Assembly (NCBI RefSeq): GCF_002286975.1
Contig: NZ_NSKB01000012.1
Span: 1 to 64,000, forward strand
Direction: 5' to 3'
DNA length: 64,000 bases
From: Halomonas salipaludis
GTDB lineage: Bacteria > Pseudomonadota > Gammaproteobacteria > Pseudomonadales > Halomonadaceae
Of this stretch, positions 56,907 to 64,000 are shown piece after piece; within the stretch, counting starts at the first letter, position 1, and each line of letters starts with the position of its first letter. The translations under genes were made by a program, and so were the position numbers. Under the pieces are notes generated by a model that did no database searches, was not told where the DNA came from, and worked only from the letters and a program-made list of their open reading frames with translations.

Positions 56907-57311
56907 TCAGCGCCGCCGACACATTTCCGCAGGGTGACGCAGCTGAGCCAGCAGGTAGGCCTTGAGCTCGGCATCCACGCCCTGCTCGTCGAGCGCCGTT
57001 GCCATGCACAAAAGCCAAGCGTCGCGCTCCTCGGGGCCGATATCCAAGTGACGATGCGCCCCCGGGATGCTGATCGGCCCGAAACGCTCGCGATAGCGCT
57101 TGGGACCGCCCATCCAGCCGATCAGAAAGGTGGTCAGCTTGTCCCGCGCCTCGCCGAGATCGGCGGGATGCATGGCGCGAATCCGCTGCGCCTCGGGCAG
57201 CCGCTGCATCGCCGCATAGAAGCGCCCGACGAGTGCGGCCACCGCCGCCTCGCCGCCCAGCGCCTGCAGGGTACTGTCGCCAACGCCGTAGATTCGTGCC
57301 GTATCGCTCAT
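56907..57311 (-). CDS. Group-2 truncated haemoglobin, coupled to the SMC operon
   Basis: The 134-residue haem protein of the 2-over-2 globin fold has an N-terminal extension (ARIYGVGDSTLQALGGEAAVAALVGRFY). Its haem-pocket segment is AHRHLDIGPEERDAW, with the proximal His (H88) and the group-2 Trp (W99). Such globins bind oxygen or nitric oxide, often for detoxification. The ATG at 57311 lies 1 nt after the stop of the giant SMC-like gene, and its GAGGAG ribosome-binding site is inside that gene. This implies translational coupling to a DNA-management operon, an unusual partner for a globin; the functional link is unknown. Confidence 0.88.
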   Translation of the reverse strand: MSDTARIYGVGDSTLQALGGEAAVAALVGRFYAAMQRLPEAQRIRAMHPADLGEARDKLTTFLIGWMGGPKRYRERFGPISIPGAHRHLDIGPEERDAWLLCMATALDEQGVDAELKAYLLAQLRHPAEMCRRR

Positions 57312-57312
57312 C

Positions 57313-60300
57313 CTACGTCTCCTCGCTGACCGGCTCGCTGACATGGATGCCGAACAGGCTGGCTTCGCCGGCGCTGCGACCGAGCTGCTCGGGTGCGACG
57401 CTGCGGCCGTCGCGGACCATGACATGACCGCCCTGGCCCTGAACACCGCCGATCACGCTGCCCACCAGGTAGGTGGGGAAGATTGCCGGGTCGTTCTCGT
57501 AGTTGGGATTGTGGATCAGGCCGATCATCTGGAAACGCCCGCGGGTGTTGCGCAGCGACTCCAGCGAGTCCTGAATCAGCCGCCGGTGGGAGAGCTTGGA
57601 GAACAGGCCGTCGAGCAGGATCACGCTCTCGCGGCTGTTGCGCGCCCGCCGCTTGTGGTGGCCGGGCAGTTCGCGCAGCTCGCGCTCGATGGCGAACTCC
57701 GAGAGCTTGACCAGCCACATCAGCGATACCGCCTCGCGCTGGCCCTCGGACATGTCCTCGTTGAGCGAGAACAGCCGACCGTGGGGACGGATGGCGTCGT
57801 GCTTGAGGCGAATCGCTACGTCGTGGAACAACCCGCGGTAGATGCGCCGGCGAATCTGGCGCAGCAGGTCGTCGTCGCGGCGCCGTGCATCGCCGTCGGG
57901 CATGCCACCGTCGCGCTCGGCGCGGCGCTTCTGCGCCAACTGGTGCTCGTCGATGTCCGCCAGCAGGGTGGTGATCAGCTCGCGCAGCGGCTCGCCGTCG
58001 ATCAGCGACGCCTTGACCTCGAAATAGGCGCCGCCCTCGCCGTGGCTGCGCGCCACGCGCTTGAGGATATCCAGGTTGCCGGCGGCGTCGGCGATGATCG
58101 AGCTCAACCGCTCGACCAGGGTGCCTTCGATCTGCTCGCGTGAGGCATGCAGCCGCTCGACACGCTGGCGATGCTCGCCGAGCTGAGCGTCGAGCTGGTC
58201 GTGCAGCGCCGCCAGATCGGCCAAGGCCGCTGCACTGACGCCCTTCAATGCCGCCAGCCGCGCGCGCTCGGTATCGCTGAAGGCACGGCTCTGGGCAGCC
58301 GCCTCCAGCGCCTCGGCCAGGCGCCGTTCGAGGGCACGCACCGCCTTGTCCTGGCGCTCGCGGTCGCGCGCCCGTTCACCCAGGTTGAGATCATCAAGCG
58401 CATCGATCAGGGTCTGCTGGCAGGCCTCCAGCGCCGCCGGATCGGGCAGCGCCGCCTCACTGCCTGCCAGCCGCCACCAGTCGTCCAGCGCTGCCTGACG
58501 CGGCGCCTGGTCGGGGTCGTCGAGGGGCCAGGCGCACTGCGGCTCGGCCTCTGCCAGCCGCTGCCCCCAGCCGCTGGGCAGCTCGCGGACCACCGCCAGC
58601 CACGCCAGGGCCAGATGGTCGACCCACTCCATGGCCCGGCGCTGGACGCCGAGCCGCTCGCTGACGCTGTCACGCTCCTCGCGCTTGGCCTTGAGCTGCT
58701 CACGGCACTCGCCGCGCTCGCGCTTGACCCGAGCGATCTCGCGCTCGAGTTTCTGCCCGCCGCCACCGGCGTCGCGCACGTCGAGGTAGGCGCGGATCCG
58801 CGTGAACGAGAAGTCGGCGCGGCGGTTGGCCGTGGCCAACTGCGTCTCGAGCTGCTCCTGCACCTCGGCGGCGGTCTCGATAAAGGCCACGCCACCCTCG
58901 GCCTCGAACTCGGCCAGGGCGCGCAGCCGGTCGCGTTCGCCATCGGCGAATAGCCCGCGCTGCTCGGCGTCGAGTTCGCTGAGACGGCGCTCGAGGGTCT
59001 CGCGCTGGGCCTCGGCGTCATGCAGTCGCTCGCCGACCTCGGCCTGGCGTTCGGCCAGGGCATCGAGGCGCGCCTCCAGCGCTGCGAGCCGCTCCGCGCC
59101 ACCGGCGTTGGCAAACTGCTCCGCCGCCAGCCAGGTCTCGCCATGGCGCTCCAGCGCCTGCTGCGCATCGACCAGTTGCGGGCGTTGCTCGGCCAGTTCG
59201 CTCTCGGCCGCCAGTGCCGCCTCGGCGGCGGCCTCCAGGGCCAGCTCACCACCGGCTTCCAGGTAGCGCTGGTAGTCGTCGATGCAGCTCAGCGCGGCGT
59301 CGCTGAGGCGCGGCGCCAGCGCCGCCTGGCGCTCGGCCAACGCGGCCTGCTCGGCACCCAGCGCCTCCAGCGCATCGACCACTCCGGCCTCATCGGCCTG
59401 CCTGGCGCGTACCGCCAGGGCGTAGGCCTCGCCGTGGGGATCGAGACGCCGGCATTCGACCTCGAGTGCCACCTGGCGCTCGCGGTCGGCGGCCAGGCGC
59501 CGCTCGGTGGCCTGACGCAGCTCGTCCAGGTAGCGCGGGTCGAGGGCCGCCTTGACCGCCAGCGTCTCGACGCCCTGTACCGCACCAAGCGGCGAGCGGC
59601 CGGCCTCCAGCCGCGTCGTCAGGGCCCCGGCTTCGAGTACCGGCAGCGCCAGGCCGGCGTCGACCAACAGGCCGGCGACGTCTTCGGCATTGGCCTCGCC
59701 CTCGACCACCGGCGCGAACAGCACCCCGGCGGCCTGGGCCAGCCACTCGCGGCGCCGGGCCTCGGGCCAATGCGCGGCGTTGAGCACTTCGTGCAGCGGC
59801 TGCCAGGCGATCTCCTCGCGCTGCAGCAGGCGCTCGGCCTCGGCTTCCACCGCACGGCGTTCGAGTGGGTCGCCGCTCAGGCTCTCCAGATAGCGCTGGC
59901 GCTCGGCAATGGCGCTATCCAGCGACTCCGCCTCGCTGAGCAGTCGCGGGTAGCGGCGCTGGGCATCGCGCAGCCAGTCCGCCGGGGCCAGTTCGCTGCG
60001 TTCGGCGAAGCTCAGCCGCGCCTGATGCAGCTCGCGCAGCTCGGCCTCGCGCTGGGCGAGGCGGTGCTCGGTATCCGCCAGTTCACGCTCGCGCTCGCGC
60101 AGGCGGCTACGCAGGTGCACCGGTTCGTCATCGCCGTGCAGCTCGGCGTAGCGCCGCGCCGCCTCGGCCAGCGGTGCCAGCCGCGCCTGCTCGCGGCGGG
60201 CATCCTGCTGGCGCTGCTCGGCGTCGCGGCAGCGGGTCTCGAGTTCGGCCAGCTGGGTCTTGCGCCGCGACCAGAAACCGCGCGGCTCCTCCTCCGGCCA

Positions 60301-62196
60301 GCCCTCGACGAAGGCCTGCCACGGCCCTTGACCCTGGCTGAGCAGGCCCTGCTCGCCGGCCAGGCGCTGCTGCTCGTCGCGCAGGGTGGCCGCCTCTTCG
60401 CGCAGCTCGCGGCACTGCTCGAGCAGCGGTTGGCGCTGCTGCTCGGCGGCCTCGCGGGCCTCCTCGATCAGCGCCTCGCGCTCGTGCTTCTCGGCCAGGC
60501 GCTCGGCGGGCACTTCATGGGGGTGACGCTGGCGGAACTCGGCGTGCCAGGCGGCGACCTGCTTGAGCTCGCCGCTGCGACCCAGATGCGCGTTGAGGGC
60601 GCGGCGCGCCTCATCGGCCTCGCGGCGGCTGGCCTCGGCGGTGTGTTCCGGCGCCTCCAGCTCGGCCTCGCTGAACAGGCCGTCGGCGAGCGCCTGGGTA
60701 TAGAAACTCTGGTTGTCGACGAACTCGCGCTGCTGCCCCTCGAGGCGCTCACGGTCGTGCTCGAGGCCCTCGAGCTGCTGCTCGAGGCCGTCGAGGTCAT
60801 GGCCTAGCTCATCGAGGTAGGTGCGGTCGGCGATCACCTCTTCGCGGAAGCGGTTGCCGTCCAGCGCTTCGAAGGCATCGGCCGCGCTGTCCAGCGCCTC
60901 CAGCGCACGGTGGCGCGCGCTGTCGTCGTTGAAACTCAGCGTCTCTGCCAGCCAGTCGCGGGCGGCGGCAAAGGTCACGTGGCCCAGGTCGCGGGCACTC
61001 AGCCACTCGGCATCGGGCAAGTGAATCAGCCGGCGGTGGGCATCGACCCGCGCGCCGCGCTCGGAGAGCGCCTGGCGGACGCTGCGCTCGCTGGCGCCGC
61101 TGAGCCGTGCCAGTAGCCAGGTCGAGACCCGCGGCCGGCCGGTGTCGCCCACCGCCCAGGCCAAGCCCGCCAGGGGCGCGGCATCGACGTCGGCGTCGGA
61201 CGGCTGCCGCGGCAGCCCCGGCAGGCCGGCCAGGGCCTGGCCGCCAAGCAGGCGCTCGAGGCTGGCCAGCCCCTCGTCGAGGCGCTCGCGGGCTTCGCGG
61301 GCCTCGAGCAGCGCCGCGCCGTCGGCACTCAGCGTCGCCAGGTTGGCCACCTTGTCGGCAGTGCGACGCTGGTCGCTCTCGGCTTCGTCGAGGCGATGGC
61401 GCAGCTCGGTGATATGGGTGCCGGAGTTGAGGATCACCTCCTCGATCAGCTCCTCGCTCTCGTCGGTCTCGCCGCGGGTCGCGCCGGAGAGGATCTCCGG
61501 CGCCAGCACCTCGAAGAAGAACGCCTGGTCGGCCTTCTCGCCGCCGCGCGGCTTGATGGCGTTGAAGATCTGGCTCTTGTCGGCGCCGCCCTCCTTCTGG
61601 AAGGCGGCCAGCTGCGCCAGCTCACGGCGCGACACATGGGCACCCACCGCGTCCAGCCACTCCTCGCGGTTGTGGGTCAGGCGCACGTTGCGGCTTGCCA
61701 TGGCGGTCTTGATATCGCTGTTGGCGTACAGCGCCAGCATGCCGTCGGCGGTCAGGTGGTGGACCGGGATGTCCTCGAGCCGCCCGGGGTAGTGGTAGAA
61801 CGACAGGCCACTGCCGTCGCTGTAGCCATAGAAGCCGAACACGAAGGTCTCGCCGGCGACCTCTTCGCCGGCGGCGGCGAGCATGTCCTCCTGGCGCTCG
61901 CCGCCGCTGCGAGAGCGAAACTCGACGCGCAGATGGCTCCAGCTGCGCCCCTGGCCGGCGACGGTCGATGGCGAGCACTTGCGTCGCGTGCGCGAGATCA
62001 GCGTGCGGTCCCGCGACAGCAGACCGATCAGCGCCTCGGCGAGGGTGGTCTTGCCGAAGCCGTTCTCCATGCTGATGGCGCTGGACTGGCCGCGCAGGTC
62101 GAGCAGCAGGTGACGCATCTTGGCGTCCCACGGCGAGGCGATGTCGCCGTGCTTGTTGAGCAGGTTGGCGACTTCGATACGGTTGATCACGCTCAT
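57313..62196 (-). CDS. Giant SMC/MukB-like ATPase (Muk/Mks/Wadjet-type condensin subunit)
   Basis: This 1627-residue ATPase has the SMC layout. Residues 1-260 form an N-terminal ATPase lobe with P-loop MENGFGKTT (43-51). A putative winged-helix insert follows at about 340-410 (STWLLARLSGASERSVRQAL). Long coiled coils then run to about 1440, with a globular hinge-like section near 800-880 (GVLFAPVVEGEANAEDV). The C-terminal lobe has signature SEGQRE (near 1483) and Walker B VILLDG (D near 1529), where the usual catalytic Glu after Asp is Gly. It is longer than MukB (about 1485) and much longer than MksB or JetC. It overlaps the MukE-like gene by 4 nt. The family call rests on architecture and operon context. 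Confidence 0.75.
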   Translation of the reverse strand: MSVINRIEVANLLNKHGDIASPWDAKMRHLLLDLRGQSSAISMENGFGKTTLAEALIGLLSRDRTLISRTRRKCSPSTVAGQGRSWSHLRVEFRSRSGGERQEDMLAAAGEEVAGETFVFGFYGYSDGSGLSFYHYPGRLEDIPVHHLTADGMLALYANSDIKTAMASRNVRLTHNREEWLDAVGAHVSRRELAQLAAFQKEGGADKSQIFNAIKPRGGEKADQAFFFEVLAPEILSGATRGETDESEELIEEVILNSGTHITELRHRLDEAESDQRRTADKVANLATLSADGAALLEAREARERLDEGLASLERLLGGQALAGLPGLPRQPSDADVDAAPLAGLAWAVGDTGRPRVSTWLLARLSGASERSVRQALSERGARVDAHRRLIHLPDAEWLSARDLGHVTFAAARDWLAETLSFNDDSARHRALEALDSAADAFEALDGNRFREEVIADRTYLDELGHDLDGLEQQLEGLEHDRERLEGQQREFVDNQSFYTQALADGLFSEAELEAPEHTAEASRREADEARRALNAHLGRSGELKQVAAWHAEFRQRHPHEVPAERLAEKHEREALIEEAREAAEQQRQPLLEQCRELREEAATLRDEQQRLAGEQGLLSQGQGPWQAFVEGWPEEEPRGFWSRRKTQLAELETRCRDAEQRQQDARREQARLAPLAEAARRYAELHGDDEPVHLRSRLRERERELADTEHRLAQREAELRELHQARLSFAERSELAPADWLRDAQRRYPRLLSEAESLDSAIAERQRYLESLSGDPLERRAVEAEAERLLQREEIAWQPLHEVLNAAHWPEARRREWLAQAAGVLFAPVVEGEANAEDVAGLLVDAGLALPVLEAGALTTRLEAGRSPLGAVQGVETLAVKAALDPRYLDELRQATERRLAADRERQVALEVECRRLDPHGEAYALAVRARQADEAGVVDALEALGAEQAALAERQAALAPRLSDAALSCIDDYQRYLEAGGELALEAAAEAALAAESELAEQRPQLVDAQQALERHGETWLAAEQFANAGGAERLAALEARLDALAERQAEVGERLHDAEAQRETLERRLSELDAEQRGLFADGERDRLRALAEFEAEGGVAFIETAAEVQEQLETQLATANRRADFSFTRIRAYLDVRDAGGGGQKLEREIARVKRERGECREQLKAKREERDSVSERLGVQRRAMEWVDHLALAWLAVVRELPSGWGQRLAEAEPQCAWPLDDPDQAPRQAALDDWWRLAGSEAALPDPAALEACQQTLIDALDDLNLGERARDRERQDKAVRALERRLAEALEAAAQSRAFSDTERARLAALKGVSAAALADLAALHDQLDAQLGEHRQRVERLHASREQIEGTLVERLSSIIADAAGNLDILKRVARSHGEGGAYFEVKASLIDGEPLRELITTLLADIDEHQLAQKRRAERDGGMPDGDARRRDDDLLRQIRRRIYRGLFHDVAIRLKHDAIRPHGRLFSLNEDMSEGQREAVSLMWLVKLSEFAIERELRELPGHHKRRARNSRESVILLDGLFSKLSHRRLIQDSLESLRNTRGRFQMIGLIHNPNYENDPAIFPTYLVGSVIGGVQGQGGHVMVRDGRSVAPEQLGRSAGEASLFGIHVSEPVSEET

Positions 62197-63017
62197 GCGT
62201 CGGCCTCCTGGTGGGCGGCTTGTGGCATTTCCGCTGAGGCCTCGTCGGCCAGGCGCCCCTCGGCCAGCGACTGCAGGTGGCCGAGCTGGTGCAGGCCGAC
62301 CTGCTCGCTCTCCAGGGCGCCGAGCAACGTCTGCTGCCAGATATCGCCGCCGGCCTCGTCGCCCTCCTCGACCAGCGTTTCCCGCGGCGACTCGAGCAGC
62401 CCGGCGCGAGCCTGCAGGTCGATGAAGGCGCGCACCCGGCGGTTGAGGTCCTCGCCGCGTTCATCGAGCAGCGCGCGGCTGGCCTCCGGCGCCGCCTCAC
62501 CCAGGCTGCGCAGCGCCTCGAGCTGCTCGCGCAGCAGGTCTAGCAGCTCGTTGCTGGCGAAGGTCGCCTCCTGGTAGCGGCTGACATCGGACAGCGCACG
62601 GTTGTAGCGGGTATAGAGCAGGGTATGCATCAACAGCCACAGCTGCAGGTACCACTGGGCCAGCTCGGCGCGGCTCTCCTGGCGCAGCTTGAGGGCCTCG
62701 AACACCGGCTCGCGGGTGTACAGCGGCGGCTGCTCGAGATCCGGGTCGGGCAACAGCGCGTAGTAGCGCGAGCCCGGCGCAATGCCCGGATAATCGCCGG
62801 ACTCGAAGGCCTTGAGACGCAGCCCCTGGCCAGCCAGGAAGTCGCGCAGCGCCTCGCGCTCGAGATCGCTGGCATCATCGATCAGCGCGCAGACATCGCG
62901 CTCGGAGAGCTGCCCCTCGCGGGCGGCACGCCGCTTACGGCCGCTGCCCGGGGCGCGTTCGGCACTGCGGTAGCGCAGCAGGTAGGCGACCACTTCGCCC
63001 ATTTCACTCATGTTCAT
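62193..63017 (-). CDS. MukE/JetB-like condensin subunit
   Basis: The 274-residue, helix-rich acidic protein has no strong stand-alone signature. Its central EALKLRQESRAELAQWYLQLWLLMHTLLYTRYNR stretch (quoted in parts) and the later RVRAFIDLQARAGLLE suggest a winged-helix fold of the MukE/MksE/JetB type. Position is the main evidence: 4-nt overlaps join it to a kleisin-like gene upstream and the SMC-like ATPase downstream, the standard F-E-B gene order. An acidic, low-complexity C-terminus (GRLADEASAEMPQAAHQEADA) is present. Confidence 0.55.
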   Translation of the reverse strand: MNMSEMGEVVAYLLRYRSAERAPGSGRKRRAAREGQLSERDVCALIDDASDLEREALRDFLAGQGLRLKAFESGDYPGIAPGSRYYALLPDPDLEQPPLYTREPVFEALKLRQESRAELAQWYLQLWLLMHTLLYTRYNRALSDVSRYQEATFASNELLDLLREQLEALRSLGEAAPEASRALLDERGEDLNRRVRAFIDLQARAGLLESPRETLVEEGDEAGGDIWQQTLLGALESEQVGLHQLGHLQSLAEGRLADEASAEMPQAAHQEADA

Positions 63018-64000
63018 TGCGGATCATCCTGATCGGAGAGGCGCAGTGACGGGGTCACTGCGCCGCGGACACATCGGCCGTCAGCGAGGGTCAGCTCGAA
63101 CGGCGTGGCGTCGATGCCCACCGCCAGGCGGTCATCGAGCAGTTGGGTATCGACGAAGGTGTTGAGCAGCTGGGCCAGGCAGTCGCCCTCTTCGAAGCGG
63201 TGCCAGCCCTCGGCCAGCGCCGCCGGCAGCGACAGCGGCTCGCGCTGGATGCGCTGGCGCAGCGCCGGGCCACGGGCCTCGAGGAAGCGCGCCAGCAGCG
63301 GGTCCTCGGGGGCCGCGTCGTGCTGCTCGTCGAACACCAGGGCGGCGTGGCTGGTCTCGGCACGGCGCGACTCCAGCAGCGGAATCAGCGGCGCCATGCG
63401 CGGCACCGCGACCTGCACGTGCAGCGGCATCAGCCGCGCCACCAGCGCCTGCTGTAGCGCCGCCGGCGGGGCGCTATTGAGCAGTCCGCGGGCCAGGTCG
63501 GCGAAGTCGACCACGCCCATCGACTGGATGCGCCCCTCGGCGATATCGGCGAGCAGCTCGGCGAGGCGCCGCGAGAGGTTCTCGATGGCGGTCAGCACCC
63601 GGCCGATGGCGCTGGACAGCATGCGCAGGTCCCACTCCTCGCCGCTGGCCGCCTGCTCGGCCTCACGCCACTCGGCGAAGCGTTCCATCAGCCGCGGTGC
63701 GGTGAGCTGGGCGCGGGCGTCAAGCAGGGTACGCTGAATGCTCGACAGCGCGTTGTGATAGTGGCGCTGGTTGTCGAGCAGTGCCGCCAGCTTGCCTTCG
63801 CGGGTGGGATTCTCGCGCACCCGGCGCAGCTCCTGGGTCAGCCCGCGGATCGCCAGCAGGATCTGGTTGGTGATATCCGGCACCCGGGCGAAGTCGCCGC
63901 GGGCCAGCGCCGCCAGCACCTTGGCGGCGTCGTATTCGGAGTACAGCAGGTCCTCGACCTGGCTGGCCAGGGTCACCGCCTGGCGGCCGCTGGCGGTCAG
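63014..64000 (-). CDS. MukF/JetA-like kleisin subunit, partial (cut by window edge)
   Basis: The frame is open from the window edge. The first visible residues LTASGRQAV, followed by TLASQVEDLLYSEYDAAKVLA, look like the wing end of a winged helix leading into helices, as in MukF/MksF/JetA kleisins. The middle has a helical bundle (RVRENPTREGKLAALLDNQRHYHNAL in parts), and the C-terminal quarter (VGIDATPFELTLADGRCVRGAV) would be the domain that contacts the SMC head. A GTG at 63976 is probably an internal codon, not the start, because the frame and homologous-looking sequence continue upstream. Its end overlaps the MukE-like gene by 4 nt. Confidence 0.55.
   Translation of the reverse strand: MTASGRQAVTLASQVEDLLYSEYDAAKVLAALARGDFARVPDITNQILLAIRGLTQELRRVRENPTREGKLAALLDNQRHYHNALSSIQRTLLDARAQLTAPRLMERFAEWREAEQAASGEEWDLRMLSSAIGRVLTAIENLSRRLAELLADIAEGRIQSMGVVDFADLARGLLNSAPPAALQQALVARLMPLHVQVAVPRMAPLIPLLESRRAETSHAALVFDEQHDAAPEDPLLARFLEARGPALRQRIQREPLSLPAALAEGWHRFEEGDCLAQLLNTFVDTQLLDDRLAVGIDATPFELTLADGRCVRGAVTPSLRLSDQDDPQ

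Follow-up and report, generated by a model that had tools for sequence, protein, structure and literature searches.

The right end of the analysed stretch of Halomonas salipaludis DNA (contig NZ_NSKB01000012.1, 64,000 nucleotides; hereafter the window) carries a minus-strand operon encoding a kleisin-like protein, a KITE-like protein and an SMC ATPase of 1627 amino acids (aa). We consider it likely that this operon belongs to a divergent branch of the Wadjet/MksBEFG type, in a form without the nuclease; in this branch, the nuclease gene jetD would have been lost or exchanged repeatedly, and the core would have a nuclease-independent role. Gene content, distribution among genomes and selection on the core were observed directly. 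Based on open reading frames (ORFs), sequence motifs and structural models from AlphaFold2 (AF2) compared by Foldseek, the following features were assigned:

57313-62196, minus strand: SMC ATPase, 1627 aa (ORF call and motifs).
62193-63017, minus strand: KITE-like (MukE-like) subunit, 274 aa, in the JetB/MksE/MukE position (ORF and AF2/Foldseek).
63014-64000, continuing to contig base 64405, minus strand: kleisin-like subunit in the JetA/MksF/MukF position (ORF and AF2/Foldseek).
57312-57315, minus strand: JetD-site junction, comprising the SMC stop codon and the 1 nt that separates it from the globin start.
56907-57311, minus strand: truncated globin (PF01152, E 3.3e-28).

The first-pass annotation had described three minus-strand genes with 4-nt overlaps in the order kleisin, MukE-like, MukB-like, and the ORFs agreed with it: both junctions, kleisin/KITE and KITE/SMC, are 4-nt overlaps, and the full kleisin-like protein, whose gene extends past the window end (C4:63014-64405), has 463 aa. 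The gene maps were drawn with a simple ORF script, and start codons in part of the ORF sets were set by rule. Of 58 genomes, 17 (with the window genome, of 5.48 Mb, counted) have the SMC protein over its whole length, and the kleisin-KITE-SMC order was kept in 80 of 81 loci, so that the order is not a product of chance; in the sole exception, L139, the contig end falls inside the KITE gene. A chance ORF resembling a coiled coil was rejected, given that SMC conservation runs end to end. The truncated haemoglobin that had been reported 1 nt after the SMC gene, with no JetD there, was also found when the junction was read: the globin begins 1 nt past the SMC stop codon, and no nuclease gene lies between. 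A GTG-started ORF of 179 aa is an over-extended version of the same globin. This gene is conserved beside the operon in several genera, whether JetD is there or not, and is probably outside the system.

The nuclease missing here was found in relatives (labelled G000 for the window genome, G004 for Halomonas socia, G001 for Franzmannia pantelleriensis and G003 for Halomonas sp. ML-15, as same-genus genomes). SMC homologues occurred in 80 of the 275 genomes of the bacterial family (84 rows minus four weak partial matches, E 4e-4 to 1e-3), two of them broken (G154, G215). JetD occurred in 24 of the 275, always adjoining the 3' end of the SMC gene (24/24), the two genes overlapping by up to 11 nt or lying up to 21 nt apart. 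Among the 56 SMC genomes without JetD, G008 and G134 end at contig ends 205 and 629 bases past the SMC gene and are not judgeable. The Pfam JetD_C cut-off was exceeded by 3/3 of the relatives' JetD proteins scanned (22.2-34.6 bits; cut-off 22), and PADLOC JetD1 was matched in 3/3 (E 2e-12 to 3e-19). An alignment of 20 JetD sequences showed invariant IEN and GDxDPEG motifs, which we take to be the pattern expected of a TOPRIM nuclease. In G004, whose SMC protein is 97% identical to that of the window, a JetD gene for 375 aa lies exactly at the SMC/globin junction; homology between the two genomes breaks off in the final codons of the SMC gene and is found again from the globin onwards. This family's JetD had no match anywhere in the window genome.

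A JetD gene hidden upstream of the window was considered and rejected: genes predicted as far as L026:15633, approximately 7 kb past the kleisin gene, contained no TOPRIM family, and the genome's single JetD_C match sits on another contig. Of the options offered by the first-pass annotation, a plasmid-defence relative that had lost its nuclease and a new branch both held, jointly, in view of JetD in the relatives and of core proteins that match no model; a JetD gene upstream at the locus fell away. The window genome also has a canonical type I Wadjet, JetABCD, on another contig (L157, G000:C31:320000-336000), and the family's JetD and the type I JetD are alike only around the GDxD motif.

Outside the family, complete systems were observed. 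Of 390 genomes sampled from the order, 8 gave a match at E <=1e-6. Three of these belong to another family (f8, one an Endozoicomonas), and the f8 loci had the kleisin-KITE-SMC-JetD arrangement in three of three cases; the Endozoicomonas JetD also exceeded the Pfam JetD_C cut-off. In a sample of the class, two of 350 genomes matched at E <=1e-10, namely the window genome and a more distant member of the class (G1165) with all four genes in order. Two Pseudomonas aeruginosa megaplasmid records matched parts of the SMC protein and of JetD. On one of them, the conjugative megaplasmid pPUV-6 (NZ_MT732184.1, L279), an annotated JetD-domain gene comes after fragments of a distant relative of the SMC protein, and these fragments adjoin mercury genes and a Tn3-family transposase. 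The idea that the operon is a passenger of phage or plasmid origin was rejected: there was no phage match and no confirmed relative on a viral contig, and just the two plasmid records (7% match).

The nuclease-less core is under purifying selection. The ratio of nonsynonymous to synonymous substitution rates (dN/dS) of the SMC gene was 0.052-0.148 in 18 of 18 nuclease-less pairs, and that of the kleisin and KITE genes was 0.017-0.252, as obtained by simple pairwise counting on pairs hand-picked from the tree (G201, G188 and G159 each used twice). In eight JetD-bearing pairs the values were 0.051-0.282 for SMC and 0.153-0.368 for JetD. JetD_C was absent from the entire genome in 34 of the 37 nuclease-less genomes searched, with the limit that PF09983 scores the family's own JetD barely above the cut-off and a very divergent JetD could escape it. 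Purifying selection, together with the lack of a detectable JetD in most such genomes, points to a nuclease-independent role of the core.

These results suggest the following course. The ancestor probably had all four genes, kleisin-KITE-SMC-JetD, an arrangement that persists in f8, in G1165 and in the 24 family genomes. In the JetD-bearing form, by analogy with Wadjet, the core would presumably sense small circular DNA and JetD would cut it. On many occasions, one of them in the line leading to the window genome, JetD would have been lost or an allele without it taken over, and the three-gene core would have been kept by purifying selection, mostly in genomes without a detectable JetD. The job of this core would most likely be entrapment or loop formation on chromosomal DNA, in the manner of Pseudomonas MksBEF, beside Smc-ScpAB; both the plasmid sensing of the one form and the DNA organisation of the other are proposed from the known systems. 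Alternatively, the nuclease-less core may still serve in defence: DNA of plasmids or phages would be held or silenced but left uncut, as has been proposed for Smc5/6. The JetD-bearing relatives resemble plasmid defence and have the same core, and the patchy presence (80/275) looks more like defence than like a core gene; nevertheless, we regard this alternative as rather unlikely in view of the stable chromosomal neighbourhood, which is no defence island, and of the purifying selection, both of which are also compatible with it.

The proposal that JetD was repeatedly lost or exchanged draws on the SMC tree. On a tree of 77 rows, the JetD state required 13 changes, at least 12 of which were forced by supported branches, against a mean of 20.6 for shuffled states. 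This tree leaves out four of the 81 loci, two with a broken SMC gene (L151, L154), one that is the second copy of G213 (L139) and one at a contig end (L155). When the f8 sequences were added as an outgroup (80 rows), parsimony placed JetD at the root and needed 14 changes, or 28 losses if JetD was never regained. G008 was scored as JetD-less in the 77-row tree and as unknown in the 80-row tree; both trees come from quick searches, in which long branches were flagged. Hence, at least 12 changes of JetD state are claimed, not 12 independent losses. A profile search detected JetD remnants in G102 and G154; others were recognised by eye in G111 and, fainter, in G071, and the JetD gene of G080 is frameshifted. 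Close relatives differ: Chromohalobacter beijerinckii and C. israelensis have JetD and C. marismortui does not, and of two Salinicola salarius strains, one has it and the other does not.

The core proteins belong to no described family among those searched. The profile searches that the first-pass annotation had set as a check gave no match of the kleisin, KITE or SMC protein to any JetABC, MksBEF or MukBEF model in Pfam, NCBIfam or PADLOC. The lowest E values, both for partial matches, were 0.0011 for the TrlF model and 0.0073 for LmuB. As a positive control, the type I Wadjet L157 matched PADLOC JetA1, JetB1, JetC1 and JetD1 with a best E <=2e-91 each. None of the three had a Pfam match to the MukB, MukE and MukF families, to DUF3375 and DUF4194 (the markers of MksF-type kleisins and MksE-type KITE proteins, respectively), or to SMC_N and ScpA. 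The PF04310 profile found nothing in the window genome and no full MukB across 114 genomes of the class. JetC3 loci, sought in 249 genomes, gave weak partial matches only, the Wadjet type III comparison being made with PADLOC models only. No relevant match to the PDB was obtained by phmmer or profile for any of the three; in the same search with JetD, MksG reached only E 0.54 and ranked under yeast RAD24 chains (0.07-0.10). By hhalign, there was no head alignment of the SMC protein with MukB. In the parts of the literature on Wadjet, JetD and condensins that were covered, including that on Halomonas and with subscription papers and preprints outside the scope, this SMC branch is unnamed.

The predicted folds are consistent with the assigned subunits. 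The structure runs used alignments of 40 and 41 sequences. The AF2 model of the KITE-like protein was of moderate quality (predicted local distance difference test, pLDDT, 77.0; predicted template modelling score, pTM, 0.73), and its first-ranked Foldseek match was JetB of P. aeruginosa PA14 (E 1.9e-3, probability 1.00). For the kleisin-like protein, Foldseek ranks 1 to 4 were a Wadjet type II JetA and then three MukF chains (best E 2.2e-3). This ranking of predicted folds supports the kleisin and KITE roles without proving them.

Several observations weigh against a nuclease-less Wadjet-type branch with a role of its own. The kleisin-like model, made from the H. socia orthologue, was weak (pLDDT 69.6, pTM 0.37), and at E <=0.001 Foldseek returned no match for either model. 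The hhalign comparisons of the core proteins with JetC1, JetC2, MukB, JetA, MukF, JetB and MukE gave nothing significant, a weak negative with alignments of an effective sequence number (Neff) of about 2 and single sequences as partners, and NCBIfam had no name for the full kleisin or for two JetD proteins. The ancestor of the pairs G001-G003, G201-G208, G201-G209 and G071-G111 may still have been JetD-bearing, and a chromosome-organising (condensin) role is a plausible proposal made by analogy. The JetD tree departs from the SMC tree in places, and the types of SMC tail, judged by eye, follow the JetD state across genera. In the Billgrantia-type group, tails of SEPATQE or similar go with JetD or its remnants and SEPEPT or SEPEPS with its absence, the species being interleaved, and the JetD-less loci of three genera have a common acidic tail of the EES/EET/ETS type with the globin next (both by eye). 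The tail types and the mismatch of the two trees suggest that recombination, rather than independent loss, produced part of the pattern, with a JetD-less allele being exchanged in this way besides loss. The root is also uncertain, as the f8 rows fall beside Oceanospirillum with a support of 67, and the judgeable deep loci of Oceanospirillum, Terasakiispira and Halotalea have no JetD; some gains of JetD are therefore possible.

In an alternative history, the three-gene condensin would be ancestral, with JetD added repeatedly. The many changes of state and the partly incongruent JetD tree would fit such a history, as would the deep lineages just named, but we judge it quite unlikely given that every relative found outside the family has JetD (three of three f8 loci, G1165 and the P. 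aeruginosa plasmid fragments) and that JetD remnants indicate loss in several lineages. In a further alternative, the core would borrow a nuclease in trans, for example from the type I Wadjet of the window genome, whose JetABCD is complete; besides the window genome, G019, G017 and G026 of the 37 searched have a JetD_C match elsewhere. The other 34, however, have none, which makes borrowing unlikely as a general rule, and with two JetD types that share little more than the surroundings of GDxD we hold this explanation to be very unlikely. That the operon is a functionless, decaying leftover of defence is extremely improbable: the SMC gene is broken in two of 80 genomes and G080 combines a frameshifted JetD with a P-loop substitution (K49R), but the low dN/dS in 18 of 18 pairs contradicts decay for those lineages and the ATPase motifs are intact in all 81 aligned proteins but for that one change.

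The ATPase motifs of the SMC protein were located in the window at Walker A ENGFGKTT (44-51), the signature MSEGQ (1482-1486), Walker B LLDG (D1529-G1530) and the H-loop (H1562). The P-loop, SEGQ signature and Walker B Asp that had been named at first pass proved invariant or nearly so in 81 aligned SMC proteins (L139, L151 and L154 left out, three f8 rows added); the Gly after the Asp had been overlooked. ENGFGKTT and MSEGQ are conserved in 81/81, the single K49R aside. The Walker B Asp is present in 81/81, and the position of the Glu is occupied by Gly in 81/81, with or without JetD; the same Asp-Gly occurs in G1165 and in the P. aeruginosa plasmid SMC fragment. In SMC ATPases of the ABC type, the Walker B Asp is usually followed by a catalytic Glu, and Asp-Glu was found in the type I JetC1 of the window genome and in one type II JetC2. 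As the Gly is invariant in this SMC family and JetC1 and JetC2 have Asp-Glu, it is a mark of the family. ATP hydrolysis may proceed via another residue, or the complex may be mainly an ATP-gated clamp. A bolder proposal, which we put forward as a tentative possibility, is an undescribed SMC family that lacks the catalytic Walker B Glu throughout, perhaps an ATP-gated DNA clamp or a very slow motor, and that within one bacterial family repeatedly gave up plasmid-cutting defence to become an organiser of DNA without a nuclease. SMC length across the relatives is approximately 1520-1670 aa.

Two peculiarities of single loci were also observed. The L123 copy in G080, the only K49R protein among the 81 and also the one with the frameshifted JetD, may be decaying. 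In L117, L120, L123 and L124, a unit of approximately 188 bp, consisting of the KITE gene end and approximately the first 48 SMC codons, is repeated between the KITE and SMC genes: one extra unit is present in L120 (G117) and two in L117 (G120) and L123 (G080), while an additional, incomplete copy in L124 (G121) runs into N. The repeats create small, ATGA-coupled ORFs in which the P-loop is not intact.

Past base 64000, the contig carries a divergent gene for a RecQ-type helicase and a cluster of aromatic amino-acid genes. Besides the helicase, the region next to the operon (L026:8728-15633) encodes a sigma-54 regulator (ACT and PAS domains), a biopterin-dependent hydroxylase and two enzymes, a pterin dehydratase and an aminotransferase, whose genes were found again in 11 of the 15 mapped loci; the RecQ side is present in many loci. 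The type I Wadjet locus L157 adjoins a large gene that is DNA methylase-like by eye. The window genome has its own Smc and ScpA on contig C29, and SbcCD was recognised among ORFs read by eye; thus, the operon is not the only SMC-type complex of this genome.

Loss or exchange of JetD was seen many times within one bacterial family, and with close relatives that differ in JetD the transition from defence to another role can be tested directly. The invariant Asp-Gly Walker B would probe which residues SMC motors need. If the nuclease-less core is indeed a DNA organiser, the loci would be naturally replicated pairs in which to study how MksBEF and MukBEF arose, as has been proposed, from Wadjet.

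Among known systems, Wadjet (JetABCD types I-III, also MksBEFG or EptABCD) has the same kleisin-KITE-SMC-JetD order as the complete relatives; the relatives' JetD is recognised by Pfam JetD_C and PADLOC JetD1, and the predicted kleisin and KITE folds rank JetA and JetB first (best E approximately 2e-3). Three Wadjet types have been named in a review (PMC10586767), and MksG is described as the executing nuclease, which is bound via the kleisin (PMC10123090). In contrast, the window core matches no JetA, JetB or JetC model, its SMC protein belongs to a group of approximately 1520-1670 aa with Asp-Gly, and JetD is missing. MksBEF of Pseudomonas is likewise a three-gene kleisin-KITE-SMC operon without a nuclease, but the window proteins lack DUF3375 and DUF4194, and the SMC protein is far longer than Corynebacterium glutamicum MksB, which is given as 1111 aa (PMC10123090). 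MukBEF of Escherichia coli shares the subunit order, weakly the fold class, and a large SMC protein (MukB, 1486 aa); it differs in that no Pfam Muk match and no hhalign head alignment were obtained and in that the window genome retains Smc and ScpA, which MukBEF replaces elsewhere according to a review (PMC10586767). Lamassu LmuB gave a weak PADLOC match in the coiled coil (E 0.0073), a similarity of coiled coils only, whereas the SMC protein of the window has kleisin-like and KITE-like partners.

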